Shown here one piece after another: positions 37,627 through 48,379 of a stretch of DNA of 64,000 nucleotides. The stretch is taken from the NCBI GenBank assembly GCA_031292555.1, contig JARLGV010000045.1:62001-126000 (forward strand), written 5' to 3'. The position numbers and the translations under genes were made by a program. The notes under the pieces are model-generated. The model saw only the letters and a list, made by a program, of their open reading frames with translations. It searched no databases and was not told where the DNA came from. Position 1 is the stretch's first letter. Each line of letters starts with the position of its first letter. Origin of the DNA: Fimbriimonas sp. (GTDB lineage: Bacteria > Armatimonadota > Fimbriimonadia > Fimbriimonadales > Fimbriimonadaceae).

Positions 37627-38625
37627 ATGAAATGTCCGAAGTGTGGCAAGCAGGTACCGCAGGGAGCGGCATTTTGTATGTTCTGCGGGACGGCCGTTTC
37701 GGCGCCGATGAACGTCGCGCCAACGGCGGCGACCCAGATGCCGCGACCGTCGCCCTATCCTACCGGCGTAATGCCCGCCGTAACGGCAGCCGGCATCCCC
37801 GGCCCCTCGCTAACCGGCGATTTCCAGCAGCAGAAGCGCCGCACGACGCTGATTGCGATCTTGGTCGGGCTCGTCTGCGTTCTCTTCGCGGGCGGCTTAA
37901 CGCTCAAGTCGATGGGCTTCTTCGGACAGAACGGCCGCGGACCGGGTGGCTCCAGTTTGACTGCAAAGGGTTCGCTTCCCGGCGACGGAACGCTCTATGC
38001 AACGGGCAGCCGGCCTGACGGCACTCTGATGGCGGTCGGGCAGGGACCGGGCTCGACGCTGACGACGCCTGCGAAATCCGATCTTGAGATGCCCGACGAT
38101 ATCTACAAGTGGCTGGAACACCTTCGAAAGACGGAAGAGAAACGCGTAGACATCACGATGGGCCAACTCACCACGGCCTACACCGAGAAGGAAAAATCGC
38201 AATTGGCGGGAGGCGTGGATGCGATCAAGGACCTGCTGAACGGTATCGACGACCCGAACTCCGAAATGCATCCGCCGACGGAAAAACTCGCCCAGGTGCT
38301 CAAGAAGATGCACGACGATACGCTCGATCTGCTCAAGTTCTTCGACTCGTACCCTCCGCCCAAGGAGTGCGTCCCGATCCGCGACGCCTACGACCAGGCG
38401 CTGAACGAGACGGCAGGCCAACTCGGCGACATCGCCGACCACTTGGCGGCTGGAGACGTCGACAAGCTGATGAAGATGGAGCATACAAGCGCCAAGGACA
38501 TCGACTCCGCCGGCGAGAAGACGGATCGCATGGTGGGCGAGATCTGCGACAAGTATCACAAGCGCCGCTGGTTCTCGATCGCTTCCGACATCAAGTCCAG
38601 CCCTATATTCGGATCGGGATTCTAG
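37627..38625 (+). CDS. Zinc-ribbon membrane protein
   Basis: A 332-residue protein with an N-terminal zinc ribbon (CPKCGKQVPQGAAFCMFCG, Cys at 3, 6, 17, 20), a Pro/Ala-rich linker, one transmembrane helix (about 78-98, TTLIAILVGLVCVLFAGGLTL) and an extracytoplasmic helical domain with DxxxLLKFFDSYPPPKEC and repeated heptad-like segments. Such zinc-ribbon/TM proteins are common but mostly uncharacterised; the ribbon faces the cytoplasm. The SprT-like gene follows 3 bp later. The FHA and VWA genes lie a little downstream, but a link is not shown. Confidence 0.65.
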   Translation: MKCPKCGKQVPQGAAFCMFCGTAVSAPMNVAPTAATQMPRPSPYPTGVMPAVTAAGIPGPSLTGDFQQQKRRTTLIAILVGLVCVLFAGGLTLKSMGFFGQNGRGPGGSSLTAKGSLPGDGTLYATGSRPDGTLMAVGQGPGSTLTTPAKSDLEMPDDIYKWLEHLRKTEEKRVDITMGQLTTAYTEKEKSQLAGGVDAIKDLLNGIDDPNSEMHPPTEKLAQVLKKMHDDTLDLLKFFDSYPPPKECVPIRDAYDQALNETAGQLGDIADHLAAGDVDKLMKMEHTSAKDIDSAGEKTDRMVGEICDKYHKRRWFSIASDIKSSPIFGSGF

Positions 38626-38628
38626 AAA

Positions 38629-39132
38629 GTGCCGCCGGATTCGCCCCAATCCCTGCGCGAGGCAGCCAATGCCTGCCTCGCCGATCTTTGCGCCAGATTC
38701 CCTTTGGGCTACGGGCCGGTGCTTGTCTGGCGGGCTTACCGAGTCTCGGCGGGGCTCGCCTACTACAAGAAGGGGGTCATCGGCTTGTCGACGCGAGTAT
38801 TGACCGACGAATCGCACGTGATCGACACTCTCATCCACGAGTATGCCCACCTATTGGCGGTCGCTCGGCATGGGATCCGGGCCGCTGGTCACGGCGAGCC
38901 GTGGCAGCAGGCGATGCGCGATCTCGGGCAAGAAGCGAAGGTTCGGCACAACTATCCGGTCGAACGGAATGTGTCGCGGCAACAAGTCACCTACGTTTGC
39001 GTCAAGTGCGGCAAGTCGTTCATCCGAACGCGTCGGCTGCCCAGGAAGCGTCGCTACGTGCACGCCCGATGCGGCGGCGACCTTCGATTGACCAAGGTCG
39101 AGCAGATAACGCAGGAGGCGCGGTCTTCGTAG
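38629..39132 (+). CDS. SprT-like zinc metallopeptidase
   Basis: A 167-residue protein with the SprT-like zincin motif LIHEYAHLL (HExxH, His-Glu-Tyr-Ala-His) and a third ligand in AAGHGEPWQQAMRD. A C-terminal zinc ribbon follows (YVCVKCGKSF ... YVHARCGGDLR), the usual SprT/SprTN arrangement. Related eukaryotic proteins cut DNA-protein crosslinks; the bacterial role is unknown. GTG start, 3 bp after the zinc-ribbon gene. I am confident in the fold, not the function. Confidence 0.75.
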   Translation: MPPDSPQSLREAANACLADLCARFPLGYGPVLVWRAYRVSAGLAYYKKGVIGLSTRVLTDESHVIDTLIHEYAHLLAVARHGIRAAGHGEPWQQAMRDLGQEAKVRHNYPVERNVSRQQVTYVCVKCGKSFIRTRRLPRKRRYVHARCGGDLRLTKVEQITQEARSS

Positions 39133-39255
39133 ACCAAGGCAGCGTGACAGGCAGCGTTTAAGCGTTGAAACGGACCGGCCCGGAAAGCCAGGCTCGTTGA
39201 TGAGCCAAGTGGCATTTGAATTCCGACTGGCGTTTGTTTGCGCTCTGGAAGAAAT

Positions 39256-40797
39256 ATGTGGATTGCAACGACGGAACACTGCAAACAGATCGATCGGCGG
39301 GCCAGCGAGGAATTTGGCGTGACCGCGAAAGTGCTGATGGAGCGCGCCGGTTTGGCGGTGTTCGACGTCGTGAAGGAACTCCTGCCCCATGGAGGACGAA
39401 TTACCGTCTTCTGCGGCAAAGGCAATAACGGCGGCGACGGATTCGTCGTCGCCCGACTGGCCCTCGACCACCACTATATGGTCGACTGCCTGGTGGCGGC
39501 AGAAGAGGCTTCTCTCACGCCCGAAGCCCACGAGCAGATGCGTATCGCTCGGGCCCAGGGGGTCCAGCCGATCTTTTTCACGGACGCCCGATGGCATCGC
39601 AAGACGGAAGCGCTCGGATGCCGAGATCTGATCGTCGATGCCCTACTAGGGACGGGCGCGAGGTGTGAGGTCAAGGGCTGTATCAAGGACTCGATCCAAC
39701 TAATGAACCGCAGCGGCGTGCCGGTCGTCTCGGTCGACGTGCCGAGCGGCATCTGCTGCGACACCGGCGAAGAGCTGGGAGAGAGCGTTTGGGCGTTTCG
39801 CACCGTCACCTTCGGGCTTCCGAAGAAGTTCCTGTTCGAGGGAATCGGCTTGGAGCATTCCGGATACTGGACGGTCTCCGAGATCGGTATCCCAGCTGCG
39901 CTGCTCAACGAGCCGACATCGGCACGCCTCGTCGATTGCGACTGGGTTTCGAACCTTTTGCCGGAGCGGCTCAAAGCCAGCCACAAGGGTGAGAATGGAA
40001 GCATCCTGATCGTGGCCGGAAGTCGAAATATGCGCGGCGCGGCTTCTCTTTCCGCGAAGGCGGCGGTGCGAAGCGGCGCCGGTCTCGTGACGGTCGCCGG
40101 TATCCCGGACGTTCTGAACGCGGTGGCGGCCAACGTCCCGGAGGCGATCCTGCTTCCTTTGGACGAAGTCGACGGCGTGATCAGTCCCGATGCGGCGGCG
40201 ACCGTGCTCAAGAACCAAAGCAAATATCACGCCGCGTTGTTTGGGCCGGGACTCACTCACGATCGACCCGTGTTGGACTTTCTGGCCCGAGTTTGGAGCG
40301 AATGGGATCGCCCATGCGTGGTGGATGCGGATGCGCTCAACGCGGTAGGACAGGGAGTGAAACTGCCGCGCGTCGAGTGTGTTCTGACGCCCCATCCCGG
40401 CGAAATGAGCCGTCTCCTCCACTGCAGCGTTGCCGAAATACAGTCCGACCGTTTCCGAACCGTAACCCAAGCGGTCGAGGAGTTGGGGCGGTGCGTGCTT
40501 TTGAAGGGACCCTATACGATCGTGGGCGAGCCGGGGCAGCCAATGATCGTGAACTGCACTGGAAATCCCGGCCTTGCGTCGGCCGGCATGGGCGACGTCC
40601 TGGGTGGCATGATCGCGACCTTGCTCGGGCAGGATATGCCGGGCTACTACGCGGCAAGCTGCGGAATGTACTGGCACGGCATGGCAGGCGACATCTGCGC
40701 CACCGAAATCGGGCCGATCGGCTATAGCGCAAGCGATGTTGCCGACGCACTTGCCAAAGCTCGCTGTAGAATTGTTTCAGCGTGTCACCGAAAGTAG
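39256..40797 (+). CDS. nnrDE: Bifunctional NAD(P)HX epimerase/dehydratase (NnrE-NnrD)
   Basis: A 513-residue metabolite-repair enzyme. The N-terminal YjeF_N domain (about 1-210) is the epimerase, with GRITVFCGKGNNGGDGFVVAR (phosphate loop), the VDALLGTGARCEVKG segment and SVDVPSGICCDTGE. The C-terminal domain (about 225-505) is the ADP-dependent dehydratase, a ribokinase-like fold with NPGLASAGMGDVLGGMIATLL (GMGDVL in place of the usual GTGDVL) and HPGEMSRLL. Together they restore hydrated NADH/NADPH. I prefer this ATG to a TTG 18 bases upstream. Its end overlaps the FHA gene by 16 bp. Confidence 0.9.
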   Translation: MWIATTEHCKQIDRRASEEFGVTAKVLMERAGLAVFDVVKELLPHGGRITVFCGKGNNGGDGFVVARLALDHHYMVDCLVAAEEASLTPEAHEQMRIARAQGVQPIFFTDARWHRKTEALGCRDLIVDALLGTGARCEVKGCIKDSIQLMNRSGVPVVSVDVPSGICCDTGEELGESVWAFRTVTFGLPKKFLFEGIGLEHSGYWTVSEIGIPAALLNEPTSARLVDCDWVSNLLPERLKASHKGENGSILIVAGSRNMRGAASLSAKAAVRSGAGLVTVAGIPDVLNAVAANVPEAILLPLDEVDGVISPDAAATVLKNQSKYHAALFGPGLTHDRPVLDFLARVWSEWDRPCVVDADALNAVGQGVKLPRVECVLTPHPGEMSRLLHCSVAEIQSDRFRTVTQAVEELGRCVLLKGPYTIVGEPGQPMIVNCTGNPGLASAGMGDVLGGMIATLLGQDMPGYYAASCGMYWHGMAGDICATEIGPIGYSASDVADALAKARCRIVSACHRK

Positions 40798-42077
40798 TTT
40801 TCTTCGCCCTGTTTTGCGCGGCTTCATGCCTTGTATCCGCGCAAAGCGTCAACCTCAGTTTCCCCGAGGACGGGGATCGCCAGATCTGGGCGGCCGGAAC
40901 GGCGCCCACCCAACCGCCAGACGATTCAACCGGCGTTCGCACCGAGAAGTCCGAGGCGAACCTGCCCGTCTCTGGAGCCAAGGACAGCGATACGGTCTAT
41001 GTATGGGATCGTAAGAGCGGCAACTTGGCGTCGAAGTCGGTCAAGGATGCCAAGTCCGGCATATGGACTCTAAAGGCAGAGGATTTCAAAGAGATCGCTC
41101 AGGTCTCTGTCCACTTGGATCACGACGGAAAGCCGGTCGCCGCCGCGACGGTCGATCTGGACGATGGAAAGCACAAGTACTCTCAACTCGTCGATCCGTC
41201 GACCTTCGGAACCGTCAACTTCTTCGAAGTCAAACCGGGCTCGCTTACGGTGACGGTGCACTACAAAGTGAAGGGGAAGGACGCCACCCCGCTGAAGCAG
41301 ATCGTCGACATGAGCCTCGAACGCCCGGTCGCTCTGCCCGCCGTCACGATCTCGCTTCCGGACGAAGTCGAGACGGTCGGCGCTCACAATGCGAAGGGGC
41401 CCCCGGCAGGCGTGGTACCTCCAGACACCCAAAATGCTTCATCGGCCGGTCCTACTGCTTCATCGGCGCCGGAAGGCGAAAAGAAGTCCTCTTCTAGCGG
41501 CGGTGGAGCGGGCAGTATTTTCGGATCGCTAATCGTCTACCTGATCGCGTTGGGCGCAATGATCGGCGGCATCTACTACGCCATGATGTACGTCAAACGG
41601 AATCCCGATTCGGTCGGTTCGAAGCTGGAGCAGTTGGGCGTCCAGATTCCGAAGCCGGGCGACGATCCTTTGACGAACCCCTCTCAAATTCCCGCCCCGG
41701 TGAAGTCGACTCCCGCTCCGGTGCAGAAGATTATCCTCGACGATGCGGCTCCCGCCCCGTTGGCGGCCGCCCCGGCGCCATCGGTCGGATTCGTCTCAAA
41801 CCCGCGCCTCGTGTCCCAGACCGGCGACTCGATGCCGATTCCGGAGGGCGAATTCTCGGTTGGACGGGAGTTGGGATTGGGCTTGAGCCTGGTTGGCGAG
41901 ACTACGGTCTCCCGAAAGCACGCCAATTTGGTGCGTGCCGGAGGCCAAGTTACCGTAATCGACCTGGGCAGCACGAACGGTACGTTCGTAAATGGAGTCC
42001 AACTACAAGGCGAGAAGCAATTGCAGAGTGGTGACACGGTCCAATTTGGCTCCGTCCGATTCCGCTTCGAGGGGTAG
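40782..42077 (+). CDS. Membrane protein with C-terminal FHA domain
   Basis: A 431-residue protein. Signal peptide (about 1-20, VVFFALFCAASCLVSA), an extracytoplasmic beta-rich region (21-230), a Ser/Gly-rich linker, one transmembrane helix (about 243-266, GSLIVYLIALGAMIGGIYYAMMYV), a Pro/Ala-rich linker, and a cytoplasmic FHA domain (about 345-431) with all conserved points: GRELGLGLSL, TVSRKHANLV, LGSTNGTFVNG. FHA domains bind phosphothreonine, so this would relay a kinase signal to the envelope. GTG start, overlapping nnrDE by 16 bp. First of three genes in the module. Confidence 0.8.
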   Translation: MSPKVVFFALFCAASCLVSAQSVNLSFPEDGDRQIWAAGTAPTQPPDDSTGVRTEKSEANLPVSGAKDSDTVYVWDRKSGNLASKSVKDAKSGIWTLKAEDFKEIAQVSVHLDHDGKPVAAATVDLDDGKHKYSQLVDPSTFGTVNFFEVKPGSLTVTVHYKVKGKDATPLKQIVDMSLERPVALPAVTISLPDEVETVGAHNAKGPPAGVVPPDTQNASSAGPTASSAPEGEKKSSSSGGGAGSIFGSLIVYLIALGAMIGGIYYAMMYVKRNPDSVGSKLEQLGVQIPKPGDDPLTNPSQIPAPVKSTPAPVQKIILDDAAPAPLAAAPAPSVGFVSNPRLVSQTGDSMPIPEGEFSVGRELGLGLSLVGETTVSRKHANLVRAGGQVTVIDLGSTNGTFVNGVQLQGEKQLQSGDTVQFGSVRFRFEG

Positions 42078-42082
42078 GTGTT

Positions 42083-43537
42083 ATGGGCACAGTGATGCTG
42101 AAGTTTTTGGCCGGCGGAGTCGCCGGCTTGCTGGCGTGGATGATCATGGAACCATCCGCGCCGCGGAACCTCGCATCGCACGAATGGGCCTCGTGGCAGG
42201 CCACGCTGGTGTTGCTCTTGGGTGCGTTCGTCGGAGTTGCCGTCGGCGGGCTGGACGGGTTCACGCGCGGCGGCAAAGTCCACACCACGCGCGGGCTCGT
42301 GATGGGCTTGGTTTTCGGAGCGGTAGGCGCATCGTTCGGATCGTCTATCGGCGCGATCATCGTGGGAATGACGTTCGGTTCGAGCGTGTTCTTCGATGGC
42401 AATATCATGGCGCGGATCCCCGCCCGGGTCGTTGCCCTCGTGCCGGTCGGGATGTTCCTTGGGCTCGCGATCGGCGCGAGTTCCCTCACCTTCAAGCGCG
42501 CGCTTCAAGGGTTGATCGGGGGCGGTCTCGGCGGCGCGATCGCCGGCGCCTCGTTCGACGTCATCGGCTCCGTCTTTGGTCAATCGATTCTGGCCGCCAA
42601 AGGGATCCACGGCGGTGAGTCCGGCGAGGTCGGCACCCTGTCGCGCGCATTGTCGATGGTGGTTATGGGGGCCGCGATCGGTCTCTTCATCGGCCTGGTG
42701 GAGCGTTACTCTCGAAGCGCCTGGCTTCGACTCTCGCTTGGGCGAAACGAAGGGAAGGAGTGGTCGATCGACGGCCCGCGGACCTTTATCGGCCGAAGCG
42801 AGTCGGCGAATGTGCCTCTTTTCGGCGATACAAACGTCGCGCCGATCCACGCGTCCATCGACCGTCACGGCAACCAGTACGTGCTCAACGATGGAGGTTC
42901 TCCGCTGGGAACGTATGTCAACGGGCAGAGAGTCCAGCAGGCAGTTCTGCAGCAGGGTTCGCAGATCCAAATTGGCGGTTTCGTGCTCCAATTCCTGCTC
43001 AAGGGATCGCCGGCTCCGTATCGCGGCCCCGAGGCATATGCGGGGCAATCGTATCCGATGGGTGGCGCCATGCCCCAACCGGGGTACCAGCCGATGCCAG
43101 GCGGGCAGCCGATGGCGCCGGCTCAACCGCAACCGGCACAGCCGAGAGTAACGCCGTTCGCTCAGCCCACTGGCAACCCGACTCAGGTGCTTACACCGGC
43201 CGCGTCGATGCCGACGATGGCCTACGGCGCGCCGATGGGACAAGCCCCCGCCGGGTTCGTCCTTGTCGCGTTGGACGGTCCTCTGTTGGGACAGCGCTTC
43301 CCGGTGACGGGGGCGATGGATGTCGGGCGCGAGTGCCCGTCGATCCCGATGTCATTCGACAATGCCGCCTCCCGCAAGCACGCGACCCTCAGTCCTTCGT
43401 TCAACGGGATCGCGGTCAACGATGCCGGCAGCACCAACGGAACCTTTTTGAACGGTCAACGCGTCTCCCAAGCGACGGCGGCGCCCGGAGATATGTTGAA
43501 GATAGGCTCGACGACTTTTCGCGTCGAAGCCGCCTAG
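42083..43537 (+). CDS. Polytopic membrane protein with two FHA domains
   Basis: A 484-residue protein. The first ~215 residues hold about six Gly/Ala-rich helices (GLLLGAFVGVAVGGLDG, LVFGAVGASFGSSIGAIIVGMTFG). FHA1 spans about 225-310 and FHA2 about 390-484, joined by a Met/Pro/Gln-rich linker. FHA2 is canonical (GRECPSIPM, AASRKHATL, AGSTNGTFLNG). FHA1 lacks the key residues: SRxH is APIH and S-T-N-G-T is GSPLGTYVNG, so it may not bind phosphothreonine. It lies 5 bp after the single-FHA gene and 27 bp before the VWA gene. Ligand unknown. Confidence 0.8.
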   Translation: MGTVMLKFLAGGVAGLLAWMIMEPSAPRNLASHEWASWQATLVLLLGAFVGVAVGGLDGFTRGGKVHTTRGLVMGLVFGAVGASFGSSIGAIIVGMTFGSSVFFDGNIMARIPARVVALVPVGMFLGLAIGASSLTFKRALQGLIGGGLGGAIAGASFDVIGSVFGQSILAAKGIHGGESGEVGTLSRALSMVVMGAAIGLFIGLVERYSRSAWLRLSLGRNEGKEWSIDGPRTFIGRSESANVPLFGDTNVAPIHASIDRHGNQYVLNDGGSPLGTYVNGQRVQQAVLQQGSQIQIGGFVLQFLLKGSPAPYRGPEAYAGQSYPMGGAMPQPGYQPMPGGQPMAPAQPQPAQPRVTPFAQPTGNPTQVLTPAASMPTMAYGAPMGQAPAGFVLVALDGPLLGQRFPVTGAMDVGRECPSIPMSFDNAASRKHATLSPSFNGIAVNDAGSTNGTFLNGQRVSQATAAPGDMLKIGSTTFRVEAA

Positions 43538-43564
43538 TGTGGAATACGGAGCTTAATACCGAGA

Positions 43565-44944
43565 ATGGACCAAACCCAACGAATCGACCCGAATCGAACG
43601 ATGCTGAGCGGCGCGCCGGTGTTGAACGATCCTCTAAAGACCCAGGCGATGGGTGCGTTCGACCCGCTCAAGACCAGCGCGATGGCCCCGATGTTCGACA
43701 ACGGAAAGGGTCTGATGGCCGAGGTGATCTCAAGTCGAGAGGCTACGATGGCGAACGGTCCGGCGCGGGAGCAATTCCTCGTCGAATTCACGGGAGCCGG
43801 AGTTCCTGCCAGTGTCGGGATGGGCGGCAGCGCGCGAACGCCTCTGAATCTCTGTCTTGTCATCGACCGCTCGGGGTCGATGGAGGGCGCGCCGCTCGAG
43901 TACGTAAAGCAGGCGTGCAGCTTCGTAGTGGACATGCTCGGCCCGAACGACGTGCTGAGCATCGTCACGTTCGAGGAGACGGTCGACGTTTTGATGCCTC
44001 CACAGCGGGTGACCAACAAGCAGCCGATCAAAGACGGGATACAGCGGCTGATGCCGGGCAACACGACTAACCTTTACGACGGCCTCGCTCTTGCGGCTCA
44101 GCAGGTCGGCGGCATCACCGATCCGGGCCGAGCGACTCGGCTCGTCGTGCTCACCGACGGCGATCCGACGGCAGGGATCAAGGATTTCTCGGCGCTGGTC
44201 GCCCACGCAGGCGAGATCAAGCAGCGAGGAATTACGTGCACCTTCTTGGGGTTCGGTCCGGACTACAACGAAGAGCTTCTGGCCGCGATGGCCAAACGAG
44301 CGGGAGGAAACTACTACTACATCCCGCGACCCGAACTCATTCCAGAGGTGTTCCGCACTGAGTTGGACAAACTGATGACCAGCGTGGCACGCAATCTCAA
44401 GATGGAATTGAAGATCGCCCGTTGGGTCAGCCTACGGTCGCCACAAGCCTCACCAAGTGGCGAAGTTGCCTTGCCGCTGGCCGATTTGGAGCGGGGCGCG
44501 TCCATTCAGCAGGTGTTCGATTTTGATTTCACCAACCACCCTCTGGGGCATTATCGGGTGGCCAACGGCCGATTGACGTACGACGACCTGGTCACCGGCA
44601 AGGCGGAGGTGATCGACCTCGACTTCATCATGGAGTTCACCGCCGATTCCGCACGGTACTCGGCTCCTCCGAATCCTCGCGTCCAAGGCGCGGCCCAGGT
44701 CGCGCTCGCCTCGAAGGCGGTCGAGAAGACGATTTTGGGAATGAAGACCGGCGTCCTTACCCAGATGGGCGCGATCCAAGAGCTTCAGAAGACGCAGATG
44801 CTCCTCGTCCAAGAGGGCAGAACCGTCGAGGCTCAGGAAGTGACGATGGCGTTGCGCGCCATCCAAAGCGGCGACAAGGGACAGGCCGAAAAGACCTTGA
44901 TGGGAACCATGCTGCACCTTGACCAGGGCAAGAAACAGCAATAG
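43565..44944 (+). CDS. von Willebrand factor A-domain protein with DPxxT N-terminal motifs
   Basis: A 459-residue cytoplasmic-type protein. VWA domain (about 92-275) with a complete MIDAS: DRSGS (101-105), the T of NTTNLYDG, and LTDGDPT. After it come a beta domain (290-370) and a helical C-terminus (380-459) with KTQMLLVQEGRTVEAQEVTMAL. No signal peptide. The N-terminus carries three related motifs: DPNRT (8-12), DPLKT (22-26) and DPLKT (33-37). These threonines are candidate phosphosites for the adjacent FHA proteins. No kinase or phosphatase gene is in the window. Confidence 0.75.
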   Translation: MDQTQRIDPNRTMLSGAPVLNDPLKTQAMGAFDPLKTSAMAPMFDNGKGLMAEVISSREATMANGPAREQFLVEFTGAGVPASVGMGGSARTPLNLCLVIDRSGSMEGAPLEYVKQACSFVVDMLGPNDVLSIVTFEETVDVLMPPQRVTNKQPIKDGIQRLMPGNTTNLYDGLALAAQQVGGITDPGRATRLVVLTDGDPTAGIKDFSALVAHAGEIKQRGITCTFLGFGPDYNEELLAAMAKRAGGNYYYIPRPELIPEVFRTELDKLMTSVARNLKMELKIARWVSLRSPQASPSGEVALPLADLERGASIQQVFDFDFTNHPLGHYRVANGRLTYDDLVTGKAEVIDLDFIMEFTADSARYSAPPNPRVQGAAQVALASKAVEKTILGMKTGVLTQMGAIQELQKTQMLLVQEGRTVEAQEVTMALRAIQSGDKGQAEKTLMGTMLHLDQGKKQQ

Positions 44945-44998: not shown

Positions 44999-45038
44999 TT
45001 GATTTATCCGTATATCGTCGTTGATATACCGGTAGGTC
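44999..45038 (+). promoter_or_regulatory. Double operator and promoter of cassette copy 1
   Basis: TTGATT (44999-45004) can be a -35. Two 16-bp near-palindromes follow: GATTTATCCGTATATC (45001-45016) and GATATACCGGTAGGTC (45023-45038), centres 22 bp apart. They match a consensus GATATACCGGTATATC with 3 and 2 mismatches. The same pair stands before copies 2 and 3. Still present although the regulator gene behind it is dead, so it can be a target of the repressors from copies 2 and 3. Confidence 0.6.
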
Positions 45039-45081
45039 ATGTAGTCATGGCGTATATCAATCGGTCGATATGCGGTGCTTT

Positions 45082-45561
45082 ATGGCTACAACCATTCGCG
45101 ATGGCCGCCAACGTTCGGGTGGGTGCGGAGACGGCGGAAACCATCCGTCGCGTGGCCAAAGAACTTCGCTACCAGCCTAATCGCCTGGCCCGGAGCTTTC
45201 GGCTGCAACGGACTTATACGATAGGGCTCCTGTTCTCGCATTTTGGCCGGATTGGCGAGCTCGACGGTTACTTCGCGGCCCTACTTAACGGCGTCATGAG
45301 CGCCACCTTCCAATCCGAATACGGCTTGACGGTCTGTCCCAAGTTGGCGCGCTCGTCGAGCAGTGTCGTCATGAACGACGGCCGGTTTGATGGACTCCTA
45401 TCGTGCAAGCCAGATTACACGGCGAAGAACGCCGAGGCCATCAAGCAGTCCGAGATACCGATCGTCATGTAGCACACGCCCTGCGGACAGGGACCGGGCG
45501 TTCCGAAATTCTGCTGTGACAACGAGCAGGGTCTTCAGATAGCGGCAAGCACCTTGCCGAC
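45082..45561 (+). pseudogene. LacI-type repressor remnant (cassette copy 1)
   Basis: Starts like the intact LacI genes (ATG 45082, MATTIRD) but then loses about 70 bp covering the helix-turn-helix and hinge and shifts frame. The open part resumes with AANVRVGAETAETIRRVAKELRYQPNRLARSFR and FGRIGELDGYFAALLNGVMSATFQSEYGL, clearly the same protein as copies 2 and 3. A TAG at 45470 truncates it (PIVM-stop where copies 2 and 3 read PIVMMHAP). Beyond it, still recognisable FCCDNEQGLQ continues. Without a DNA-binding domain it cannot act as a repressor. Confidence 0.85.
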
Positions 45562-45851
45562 ATGGGGCATCGGCGCATCGCCTACATCATGGATTCGTCG
45601 AACGATTCGACCGCCGAAGGGCGTACGCGAATCGCCGGCTACCAAACCGCCATGGCAACCGCGCACAAGACGGCCGGAAACGGTGACATGCACAAGTACG
45701 AATCCGGCGTGAACGGCGCGGTCAGCACCAATTTCTCGGGCCAGTCCGTGTTCGCATTCGTGGACGGACATGCTAAGTCGCAGATCCCGTCGGTAACTAA
45801 CCCGGGCCCGGTCAACTAGCCCCAGAACAACCAGTGGGCTGGATTGCGCTA
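45562..45851 (+). pseudogene. Chimeric remnant: LacI middle joined to pseudopilin C-terminus
   Basis: An open frame starting at HRRIAYIMDSSNDSTAEGRTRIAGY, which is a LacI segment, passes without a stop into GVNGAVSTNFSGQSVFAFVDGHAKS, the C-terminal end of the cassette's pseudopilin. Compared with copies 2 and 3 a deletion removed the LacI C-terminus and nearly all of the pilin gene. Remnant pilin codons (after a stop at 45817-45819) continue to the TAA at 45849-45851 where the homologue ends (WDGLR-like WAGLR). It is decay debris, not a gene. Confidence 0.8.
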
Positions 45852-46474: not shown

Positions 46475-47497
46475 ATGGCAATCACCATTCGCGATGTAGC
46501 GAAGGCAGCTGGGGTTTCGGCGATGGCTGTGTCGAAGGTTCTCCACGGTAAAGGGGCAAATGTTCGAGTTGGTCCGGATACTGCTGAGACGATTCGCCGG
46601 GTAGCCAAGGAGCTGCGATACCAGCCCAATCGACTGGCGCGGAGTTTTCGGCAGCAGAAAACAAACACGATTGGACTCGTGTTCTCTCGTTTTGGCCGCA
46701 TCGGGGACCTCGACGGGTACTTTGCTGCATTCCTAAATGGTGTAATGAGCGCTACTTTCCAGTCCGAGTATGGGCTCACCATTTGTCCGAAGCTATCCCG
46801 ATCCTCTTCGACTGGAGTGGTGAACGACGGAAGATTCGACGGCATTCTCTGGTGCAAGCCTGACTACACAGTTCAGACCGCAGAGTCCATCCAGCGTTGT
46901 GACCTTCCGATCGTGATGATGCACGCCCCCGGAGGTCAGGGGCCCGATGTTCCGAAGTTCTGTTGTGATAATGAACTAGGATTGAAGCTGGCGGTGGATC
47001 ATCTGGTGGAGCTTGGCCATCGGCGCATCGCATTCGTGATGGATGCCCCAAACCGATCGACTGCTGAAGGACGGGCTAGGATCGCCGGCTATTACGCGGC
47101 AATGGAAAGCCATGGATTGGCAACACCCGATTGCAACGTTCTGTTTTGGAGCATCGAACAGCCAGAACTTGCCCGCTTTAGGGAATGCGACGCATGCCCA
47201 ACCGCACTGATCGTGTTCAGCGAACGACAATCAGTAGCAATATTGAAGGAGGCAGAGTCGATCGGCATTTCGGTGCCCGGAGATCTATCGGTGGTTGGGT
47301 TTGACTCGACTGCTTTCTGCGATACAACTCGTCCACGCTTAACCGCGATCAGGCAACCGATTGAACAGATGGCGTTTGACGCCACCAACGTCCTGATTTC
47401 TAGTATCGAGGGGCAAAACTGTCCTTCCAACTCCTACTTGTATCCATGTGGGTTCGACATTCGCGAATCCACTGCCATTCCGGCATCTCGGTGTTGA
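46475..47497 (+). CDS. LacI-family repressor (cassette copy 2)
   Basis: A 340-residue transcriptional repressor. The N-terminal helix-turn-helix (TIRDVAKAAGVSAMAVSKVLHGK, 4-26) and hinge helix (RYQPNRLARSFRQQ) bind the operator; the rest is a periplasmic-binding-protein-like sensor (about 62-330) with PIVMMHAPGG, DHLVELGHRRIAF and VPGDLSVVGFDS. It ends in -PASRC as copy 3 does. It is about three quarters identical to copy 3 by eye, but its codons are AT-richer. No sugar gene is linked: the downstream gene is a pseudopilin starting 12 bp later. Probable self-regulation through the two operators upstream. Effector unknown. Confidence 0.9.
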   Translation: MAITIRDVAKAAGVSAMAVSKVLHGKGANVRVGPDTAETIRRVAKELRYQPNRLARSFRQQKTNTIGLVFSRFGRIGDLDGYFAAFLNGVMSATFQSEYGLTICPKLSRSSSTGVVNDGRFDGILWCKPDYTVQTAESIQRCDLPIVMMHAPGGQGPDVPKFCCDNELGLKLAVDHLVELGHRRIAFVMDAPNRSTAEGRARIAGYYAAMESHGLATPDCNVLFWSIEQPELARFRECDACPTALIVFSERQSVAILKEAESIGISVPGDLSVVGFDSTAFCDTTRPRLTAIRQPIEQMAFDATNVLISSIEGQNCPSNSYLYPCGFDIRESTAIPASRC

Positions 47498-47509
47498 GGT
47501 GAATCTATC

Positions 47510-48379
47510 ATGCAACGAAAAGCATTTACATTAATAGAACTCTTAGTCGTCATCGCGATTATCGCGATCCTCGCCGCTATCCTGTTCCCGGTCTTCGCAC
47601 AAGCCAAGCTTGCGGCCAAGAAGACATCGGCCCTAAGTGGTGTCAAGCAACTCGGCCTCGGCGTCATGATGTACATTCAAGATTCGGATGACCTGTTCCC
47701 GGTCGCATTCGGCGCCACGGGCTGGCTCGGCAATGACCTGCTGCCCATCCGCTTGATGCCCTATGTCAAGAGCATTGGCGTCTTCGGCGTTTCGGTAGAC
47801 TCGCAAGCCGGCCAGGCAATCGACGGCACATGGGCAGGCGTAGGCGTTTCATTCGGCGTCAATAGCTACTATTCGCCGAACTGGTGCTGCTCGCCAACTT
47901 GGAATACGGGTTTCCCCCTACGAGGACCCATGGGTGTTCCCAACAATTCGACCTGGCTAGCCGGGTCCGCGTTGAACGACACATCCATCACTCAGCCATC
48001 GGGGACGATTATGTTGGCCCAGAAGAACGGAGCGGATGTTGCGGCTTGGAACTCGAAGTTCGAGAACAATTCGTATAACTTCCAGGGTGGCAACTTGTCG
48101 GCATTCGCACCGGGCGCACTTCTCTCCGGAATGGTTACCGACACGAGCGGCTGGGGCCCGACTCAGATCCCTAACGGACAGAGCACGAACTACGTCGGTA
48201 AGGGCGACGGAAACCCTCTGCAATTCGAGTACGGCAAGAACGGTGCGGTGAGCGCATCCTATTCCGGTCAATCGGTCTTCGCCTTTGTGGACGGACACGC
48301 GAAGGCGATGATCCCGTTCACGACCAACCCAGATCCAGTCAACCTGCCACAGAGCAATATGTGGGACGGCTTGCGTTAG
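47510..48379 (+). CDS. Pseudopilin-like DUF1559/DGHAK secreted protein (cassette copy 2)
   Basis: A 289-residue protein. The N-terminus is a type IV prepilin/pseudopilin signal: MQRK, then AFTLIELLVVIAIIAILAAILFP, with Ala instead of Gly before the cleavage point. SGVKQLGLGVMMYIQDSDDLFP follows, as in DUF1559 proteins. A globular region rich in Asn, Ser, Gly, Trp and CC pairs (WCCSPTW) ends with SGQSVFAFVDGHAK. The His of the usual H-X9-DG motif is missing. A GAGGTG lies before the ATG, 12 bp after the LacI stop. Likely surface or envelope filament subunit; no secretion machinery is linked. Confidence 0.85.
   Translation: MQRKAFTLIELLVVIAIIAILAAILFPVFAQAKLAAKKTSALSGVKQLGLGVMMYIQDSDDLFPVAFGATGWLGNDLLPIRLMPYVKSIGVFGVSVDSQAGQAIDGTWAGVGVSFGVNSYYSPNWCCSPTWNTGFPLRGPMGVPNNSTWLAGSALNDTSITQPSGTIMLAQKNGADVAAWNSKFENNSYNFQGGNLSAFAPGALLSGMVTDTSGWGPTQIPNGQSTNYVGKGDGNPLQFEYGKNGAVSASYSGQSVFAFVDGHAKAMIPFTTNPDPVNLPQSNMWDGLR

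Follow-up and report, generated by a model that had tools for sequence, protein, structure and literature searches.

A candidate ArnAB-like phosphothreonine–FHA switch with N-terminal threonine tags in Armatimonadota

A 64,000-nucleotide stretch of Fimbriimonas sp. DNA, referred to here as the window, carries adjacent genes for two membrane FHA proteins (FHA1 and FHA2) and a VWA protein that are probably part of a bacterial ArnAB-like phosphothreonine (pThr)–FHA switch of the Armatimonadota, distinguished by arrays of tags at the N-terminus and by FHA anchors in the membrane. Many bacterial FHA proteins have no identified ligand, and in this case the sequence by itself puts forward a kinase, a phosphatase, readers and the exact threonines. 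The module also ties to the archaeal ArnAB switch and to the Sec23/24 core fold, and with a few peptides and recombinant domains the origin and working of ArnAB-type switches becomes testable.

Gene row and threonine motifs of the VWA protein

Table 1. Features of the FHA/VWA module, in window positions
Feature	Position	Strand	Description and basis
YjeF/carbohydrate-kinase-type NAD(P)HX repair gene	39238..40797	+	conserved neighbour
FHA1 gene	40782..42077	+	signal peptide, extracytoplasmic beta-rich region, one TM segment, cytosolic FHA domain; ORF, Pfam, hydropathy
FHA domain of FHA1	41817..42074	+	Arg362, Ser377, Arg378, His380, Asn399 in 30/30 orthologues
FHA2 gene	42083..43537	+	about five TM segments, then two FHA domains; ORF, Pfam, hydropathy
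FHA2a, degenerate	42734..43006	+	Pro replaces the pThr-binding Ser in 27/30
FHA2b	43250..43534	+	pThr-binding residues intact in 30/30
VWA protein	43565..44944	+	ArnB-like three-domain fold plus N-terminal tail; Pfam, AlphaFold model, fold match
Predicted disordered tail, residues 1-47, with motif array	43565..43705	+	AlphaFold, alignment
DPNRT motif, T12	43586..43600	+	Thr in 49/52 aligned
DPLKT motif, T26	43628..43642	+	Thr in 48/52 aligned
DPLKT motif, T37	43661..43675	+	Thr in 50/52 aligned
Loop REATMANGPAR	43736..43768	+	putative counterpart of ArnB loop H12-K21, by residue range offset only
VWA domain, intact MIDAS	43844..44380	+	D101, S103, S105, T167, T168, D198 invariant in 52; Pfam
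C-terminal four-helix bundle	44648..44926	+	T389, T410 invariant; T427, T444, T448 at least 94% of 52

The succession of FHA, double-FHA and VWA genes described in a first-pass annotation of this DNA was confirmed by open reading frames and by Pfam, which finds one FHA domain in FHA1, two in FHA2 and a VWA domain in the third product. Its description of both FHA proteins as membrane proteins also holds, since hydropathy predicts a signal peptide plus one transmembrane segment in FHA1 and about five segments in FHA2; none is predicted in the VWA protein, which appears to be soluble. The YjeF gene, which overlaps FHA1 by 16 bases, is probably outside the switch, and FHA1 and FHA2 are separated by 5 bases. 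Upstream, a gene for a zinc-ribbon single-TM protein (37627-38625) and an SprT-like gene (38629-39132) lead into YjeF in an order kept in close relatives. Just 3′ of the VWA gene, at 44999-45819, lie fragments that by eye resemble a LacI-type gene at 46475-47497, and an ORF at 45562-45819 seems to fuse LacI-like sequence to the end of a pilin-like gene (47510-48379), a pattern such as duplication followed by internal deletion leaves behind.

The N-terminus of the VWA protein contains the three motifs DPNRT, DPLKT and DPLKT reported earlier, and the stretch that had been called disordered-looking is indeed predicted to be disordered, with AlphaFold pLDDT below 50 at residues 1-8 and 10-45. We gathered 69 VWA loci, among which the named relatives belong to Fimbriimonadales and other Armatimonadota and one (L091, Paenibacillus) is no close relative. 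The alignment holds 52 of 69 possible sequences, window included, and tails were counted in 66 sequences after setting aside the Paenibacillus locus, a fragment (L084), a misplaced start (L088) and one row without the SGSM anchor. Conservation in homologues, one of the tests on which the first-pass annotation had staked its reading, proved strong for all three threonines (49, 48 and 50 of 52), the other cases being gaps, one Ser and one Ala. The mean majority share is 0.72 in motif columns and 0.40 in the remaining tail, where the spacers drift and vary in length. Zero, one, two, three and four DP.[KR]T motifs occur in 4, 12, 23, 22 and 5 of the 66 tails, respectively, window included; every tail holds at least two [KR]T, and the four free of DP.[KR]T still keep [KR]T.

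The tails use threonine almost exclusively. The ratio of [KR]T to [KR]S is 269:3 in the tails, compared with 425:180 in the VWA body (Fisher p 4e-29, for related sequences that are not independent), and DP.[KR]T occurs 201 times and DP.[KR]S 0 times in the 66 VWA tails and 25 zinc-ribbon-FHA (ZnR-FHA) tails. Comparing codons among four sequences, the window's and those of three close relatives, gives 50 synonymous and 3 nonsynonymous differences in 90 codon pairs within the motifs and 91 and 33 in 210 pairs elsewhere in the tail, counts that indicate purifying selection on the motif residues. Codon agreement between repeat copies (166/366, or 0.45) is near the 0.42 expected, and the repeats are therefore not recent DNA duplications. 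The drifting, length-variable spacers are what a functionless low-complexity tail would have, but selection on the motif residues, independent codons and restriction of the arrays to two gene families make that explanation scarcely credible. It is also highly improbable that the motif Asp ligates the MIDAS metal of the VWA domain and drives head-to-tail VWA assembly without phosphorylation: no residue of the MIDAS varies, and Asp is frequent in the motif, but it is kept in 47, 39 and 43 of 52 sequences, less well than Thr, and such a role does not predict the exclusion of Ser. A contig labelled as archaeal (Methanoregulaceae, L047) has the same VWA N-terminus as a Fimbriimonadaceae contig (L050) and is probably mis-binned.

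Distribution of the tag arrays and of the signalling genes

We scanned 201 genomes of the phylum for a tandem DNA pattern, a pair of DPx[KR]T-like motifs separated by 12-45 bases, using the reversed pattern as a control. The window's own genome gave 4 matches and the control 0, with three of the four in the VWA gene and one zinc-ribbon-FHA-FHA gene. Across the 35 genomes of the same order there were 79 matches versus 2 in the control. Of these, 76 are in frame, spread over 32 genomes, and by position and fetched loci 75 fall into two gene families, encoding either the VWA protein or a protein built as tags, zinc ribbon, FHA, FHA, the latter assignment resting on 25 fetched loci and contig C24 of the window's genome; the remaining match, G078:C1:738058, falls outside any ORF of 60 residues. 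Three genomes of the order lack in-frame arrays, namely G161, which has the genes with sparser motifs, and G181 and G185, in which the system is absent. Outside the order, 166 genomes gave 32 matches, close to the 35 of the reversed control; 14 are in frame, at least six of them in VWA (G101 twice, G108, G134, G135) or ZnR-FHA (G175) genes. Chance repeats were rejected on account of the near-empty control in the own genome and order, the independent codons and the two-family restriction.

A single-tag (type A) pattern gave 66 matches over the 35 genomes. Among 15 type A loci apparently outside known genes that were examined, 8 are the ZnR-FHA gene; by eye, others lie inside ordinary-looking enzymes (L168, L169, L178, L181), in short ORFs (L170, L179) or in nothing discernible (L180). 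Five positions (G111:C15:81591, G215:C417:3578, G026:C7:23433, G092:C1:111666 and G092:C1:1321978) were left out.

The absence of a Ser/Thr kinase from the window, noted before, is confirmed: all four PF00069 matches in the genome are on other contigs, C38, C124, C135 and C23. The signalling kit is divided here among three contigs, the window's (FHA1, FHA2, VWA), C24 (ZnR-FHA-FHA, then PP2C) and C124 (kinase), and the kinase would therefore act in trans. In distant relatives the parts come together: FHA1-FHA2-VWA-ZnR-FHA-FHA-PP2C-STPK lie in one operon, YjeF first, at L182, L184 and L080, with one extra gene interposed in the latter two, and L182 and L184 belong to other families of the phylum. 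The row is complete except for the kinase at L183 and runs from FHA1 through ZnR-FHA at L186, while L088 and L087, judged by eye, have VWA-ZnR-FHA-PP2C with and without the kinase, respectively. VWA adjoins the ZnR-FHA gene in L182, L183, L186, L087 and L184, and the two are on separate contigs in the window's genome. Pfam confirmed the kinase, PP2C and FHA assignments on ten proteins of L182, L184 and L080, and found TPR repeats on the kinases of L182 and L080 as well.

Operon linkage in these distant relatives makes C124 the likely kinase. Its gene (C124:56003-57764) encodes the start REIARSNDIVYEA, common to the operon kinases, and orthologues occur in 13 of 15 genomes tried, a count that takes in the window's own. 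The reduced genomes G181 and G185 have no C124-type kinase, FHA domain, VWA or ZnR-FHA protein, and since both belong to one genus they represent a single loss event. Against the assignment, the kinase of G191 and G108 is located elsewhere. FHA2 lies directly 5′ of VWA in 32 of 68 loci; in 12, FHA2 or other FHA genes occupy another place on the fetched stretch, no FHA2 was seen upstream despite more than 4.5 kb in 14, and the contig is too short in 10. VWA tags persist where FHA2 is unlinked. The window's genome also has a second cassette on C38 (L013 8326-11536), in which a membrane FHA gene is followed by a PP2C-like gene and a Hanks kinase with the N-terminus DETKTSYGYDPFKNE.

FHA readers and tag flavours

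FHA domains bind pThr through established Arg, Ser, His and Asn residues. None of these varies in FHA1, in FHA2b or in either FHA domain of the ZnR protein (30, 30, 29 and 29 sequences). A fold search for the FHA1 ectodomain was filled by FHA-domain matches. In FHA2a, the serine position holds Pro in 27 of 30 sequences, Arg in 2 and Gln in 1, and the Asn position has no Asn majority. Lacking Ser and Asn, FHA2a is improbable as a site of pThr reading and is probably not a pThr reader. PMC6509490 restates part of the pThr-binding role of these residues and describes FHA domains as choosing pThr and mostly not recognising pSer. The near absence of Ser from the tails therefore suggests that an FHA reader, and not just a kinase, is involved. 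In the FHA1 linker 5′ of the FHA domain, a conserved QKIILDDAAP stands out in a low-confidence region and is possibly another binding motif.

The tags come in two flavours. The ZnR-FHA tails of the window's family have T-x-[MLIV]-small 60 times and T-x-A-[MLIVF] once, while VWA tails have them 49 and 82 times. In family f42 the VWA tails have only T-x-A-[MLIVF] (28 versus 0), and the ZnR-FHA tails of f42 and f43 shift towards the same flavour (16 versus 12 T-x-[MLIV]-small, in 14 tails), with TTVAM/ATQAM-like words that have neither DP nor a basic residue in the f42 zinc-ribbon tails. This joint drift hints, weakly, at a reader shared by the VWA and ZnR-FHA tails, because kinship among the f42 tails is close and many Thr in them have no DP and no basic residue. 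Just before the zinc ribbon, ZnR-FHA tails close with a conserved N-x-T-x-TIKPVQC, as at L014 (7823-8791), which contains two more conserved Thr.

Comparison with ArnAB and the proposed switch

The AlphaFold model of the VWA protein (mean pLDDT 83.6, tail below 50) has its VWA domain inserted into a beta-sandwich, with a four-helix bundle after it, as in ArnB, and matches ArnB over its full folded length (8s05_A, Z 33.6, 371 residues, rmsd 3.8, 17% identity) and the ArnB paralogue 5a8j (Z 30.2); sequence-profile E values are 5.8e-19 and 2.5e-14, respectively. A bacterial Catenulispora protein, 4fx5, scores equally high (Z 33.2), and the occurrence of the ArnB-type fold in proteins with no known phosphorylation control counts against a switch. 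On the partner's side, phmmer matches of ZnR-FHA to ArnA (5a8i, 2.4e-5; 8s05_C, 2.8e-5) both fall in the second FHA domain, and the zinc ribbon has the CX2CX10CX2C spacing of ArnA C21, C24, C35 and C38. The Sulfolobus acidocaldarius ArnA-ArnB system thus shares with the module the VWA/beta-sandwich/bundle architecture, a zinc ribbon plus FHA partner, a Hanks kinase (ArnC/ArnD) and a phosphatase. It differs in that its phosphatase is PP2A, rather than PP2C. The partner here has two FHA domains, an array of tags lies at the N-terminus of each partner, and the module includes two membrane FHA proteins besides. In the alignment, VWA residue 48 is the counterpart of ArnB residue 2, and ArnB therefore has no such tail.

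ArnAB is under phosphorylation control according to PMC6509490 and PMC12852372. In the latter, the zinc finger keeps unphosphorylated ArnAB loosely together, and ArnC phosphorylation of the bundle leads to tight FHA binding; bacterial structural relatives listed there include 4fx5 and YfbK, and the passages covered name no bacterial ZnR-FHA partner. In the 8s05 complex, the ArnB loop H12-K21 holds the ArnA zinc finger. Conservation of the REATMANGPAR loop (0.72, versus 0.46 and 0.63 in the flanking strands) is suggestive of a conserved zinc-ribbon docking site.

The ArnB phosphosites lie in the C-terminal bundle, rather than in an N-terminal tail, and conserved Thr in the VWA bundle mean that the tail is perhaps not the main site. 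It is conceivable, if unlikely, that these bundle Thr, two of them invariant, are the regulatory phosphosites and that the N-terminal arrays serve only as kinase docking or secondary substrates. Yet conserved Thr in a folded bundle may be structural, whereas the tail Thr are kept amid drift and reappear in another protein of different architecture.

In the ArnAB-like switch that we favour, the C124 Hanks kinase would phosphorylate the DPx[KR]T threonines within the disordered N-terminal tails that the VWA and ZnR-FHA-FHA (C24) proteins carry, and the PP2C on C24 would take the phosphate off. Phosphorylated tags would be bound by the FHA domains of the ZnR partner, FHA1 and FHA2b, so that phosphorylation would tighten the VWA/ZnR-FHA complex and the complex would be drawn to membrane FHA1 and FHA2; several tags per protein could make binding multivalent and graded. 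A pThr reader-ligand system of this kind, its kinase acting in trans, fits the exclusive use of Thr, the predicted disorder, the FHA residues that remain intact and the linkage in relatives to kinase, phosphatase and FHA genes. The four VWA tails free of DP.[KR]T and the divergent words of the f42 zinc-ribbon tails weigh against it. The first-pass annotation had proposed a self-contained reader-ligand pair, a view that was right in direction and too narrow: conservation, Thr-only use and intact FHA residues agree with it, but self-containment does not stand, because the array is also on ZnR-FHA-FHA, the likely kinase is on C124 and FHA2a is degenerate. A more elaborate version, which we advance tentatively, is that an ArnAB counterpart in several families of one phylum moved the switch from the helix bundle to N-terminal arrays on both partners, with T-x-[ML]-small and T-x-A-M flavours read by different FHA domains and multivalent assembly at membrane FHA scaffolds. 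Gene contents, tag conservation, confinement of the motifs, intact FHA residues and the predicted VWA fold are observations; phosphorylation, the choice of kinase, FHA binding, membrane recruitment and output are inferred. For that output, control of surface or nutrient functions, as in Sulfolobus, would be only an analogy.

GarA/OdhI and DgcB are single proteins that are not known to have a VWA partner or an array. By PDB titles, GarA/OdhI and Bdellovibrio DgcB share with the module an N-terminal phosphorylated Thr bound by an FHA domain, and 6hc1, 2kfu and 2kb3 are FHA domains with their own phosphorylated tail. As the array directly precedes the FHA domains in the zinc-ribbon protein, its tags might form an intramolecular latch on their own FHA domains with which the VWA tags compete, with no membrane recruitment. 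We regard this as unlikely, given that the VWA protein has no FHA domain, so its binding must be intermolecular, and that FHA2 is encoded directly before VWA in 32/68 loci. Matches to the OdhI-type family NF041660 score 42.6, 78.4 and 52.6, below the cut-off of 200.

The threonine phosphorylation pathway PpkA-PppA-Fha is tied to type VI secretion genes, none of which was noticed beside the FHA/VWA module. Co-encoding of kinase, PP2C and FHA is common to both. A secretion role was rejected, as the TagH/Fha family TIGR03354 scores 26.1 for FHA1, 38.6 for FHA2 and 77.8 for ZnR-FHA, below the cut-off of 120.25. PADLOC returned no match for FHA1, FHA2, VWA or ZnR-FHA, and the kinase and PP2C matched kinase- or phosphatase-bearing models; no match specific to a defence system emerged. 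A TerY-P triad was weighed as a further candidate. A literature search of mostly open-access papers, including passages of PMC7159879 and PMC10470591, found no paper describing the module. Finally, the VWA/beta-sandwich/helical core of the VWA protein is a distant match to the Sec23/Sec24 COPII core, a likeness of fold only that implies no vesicle coat.
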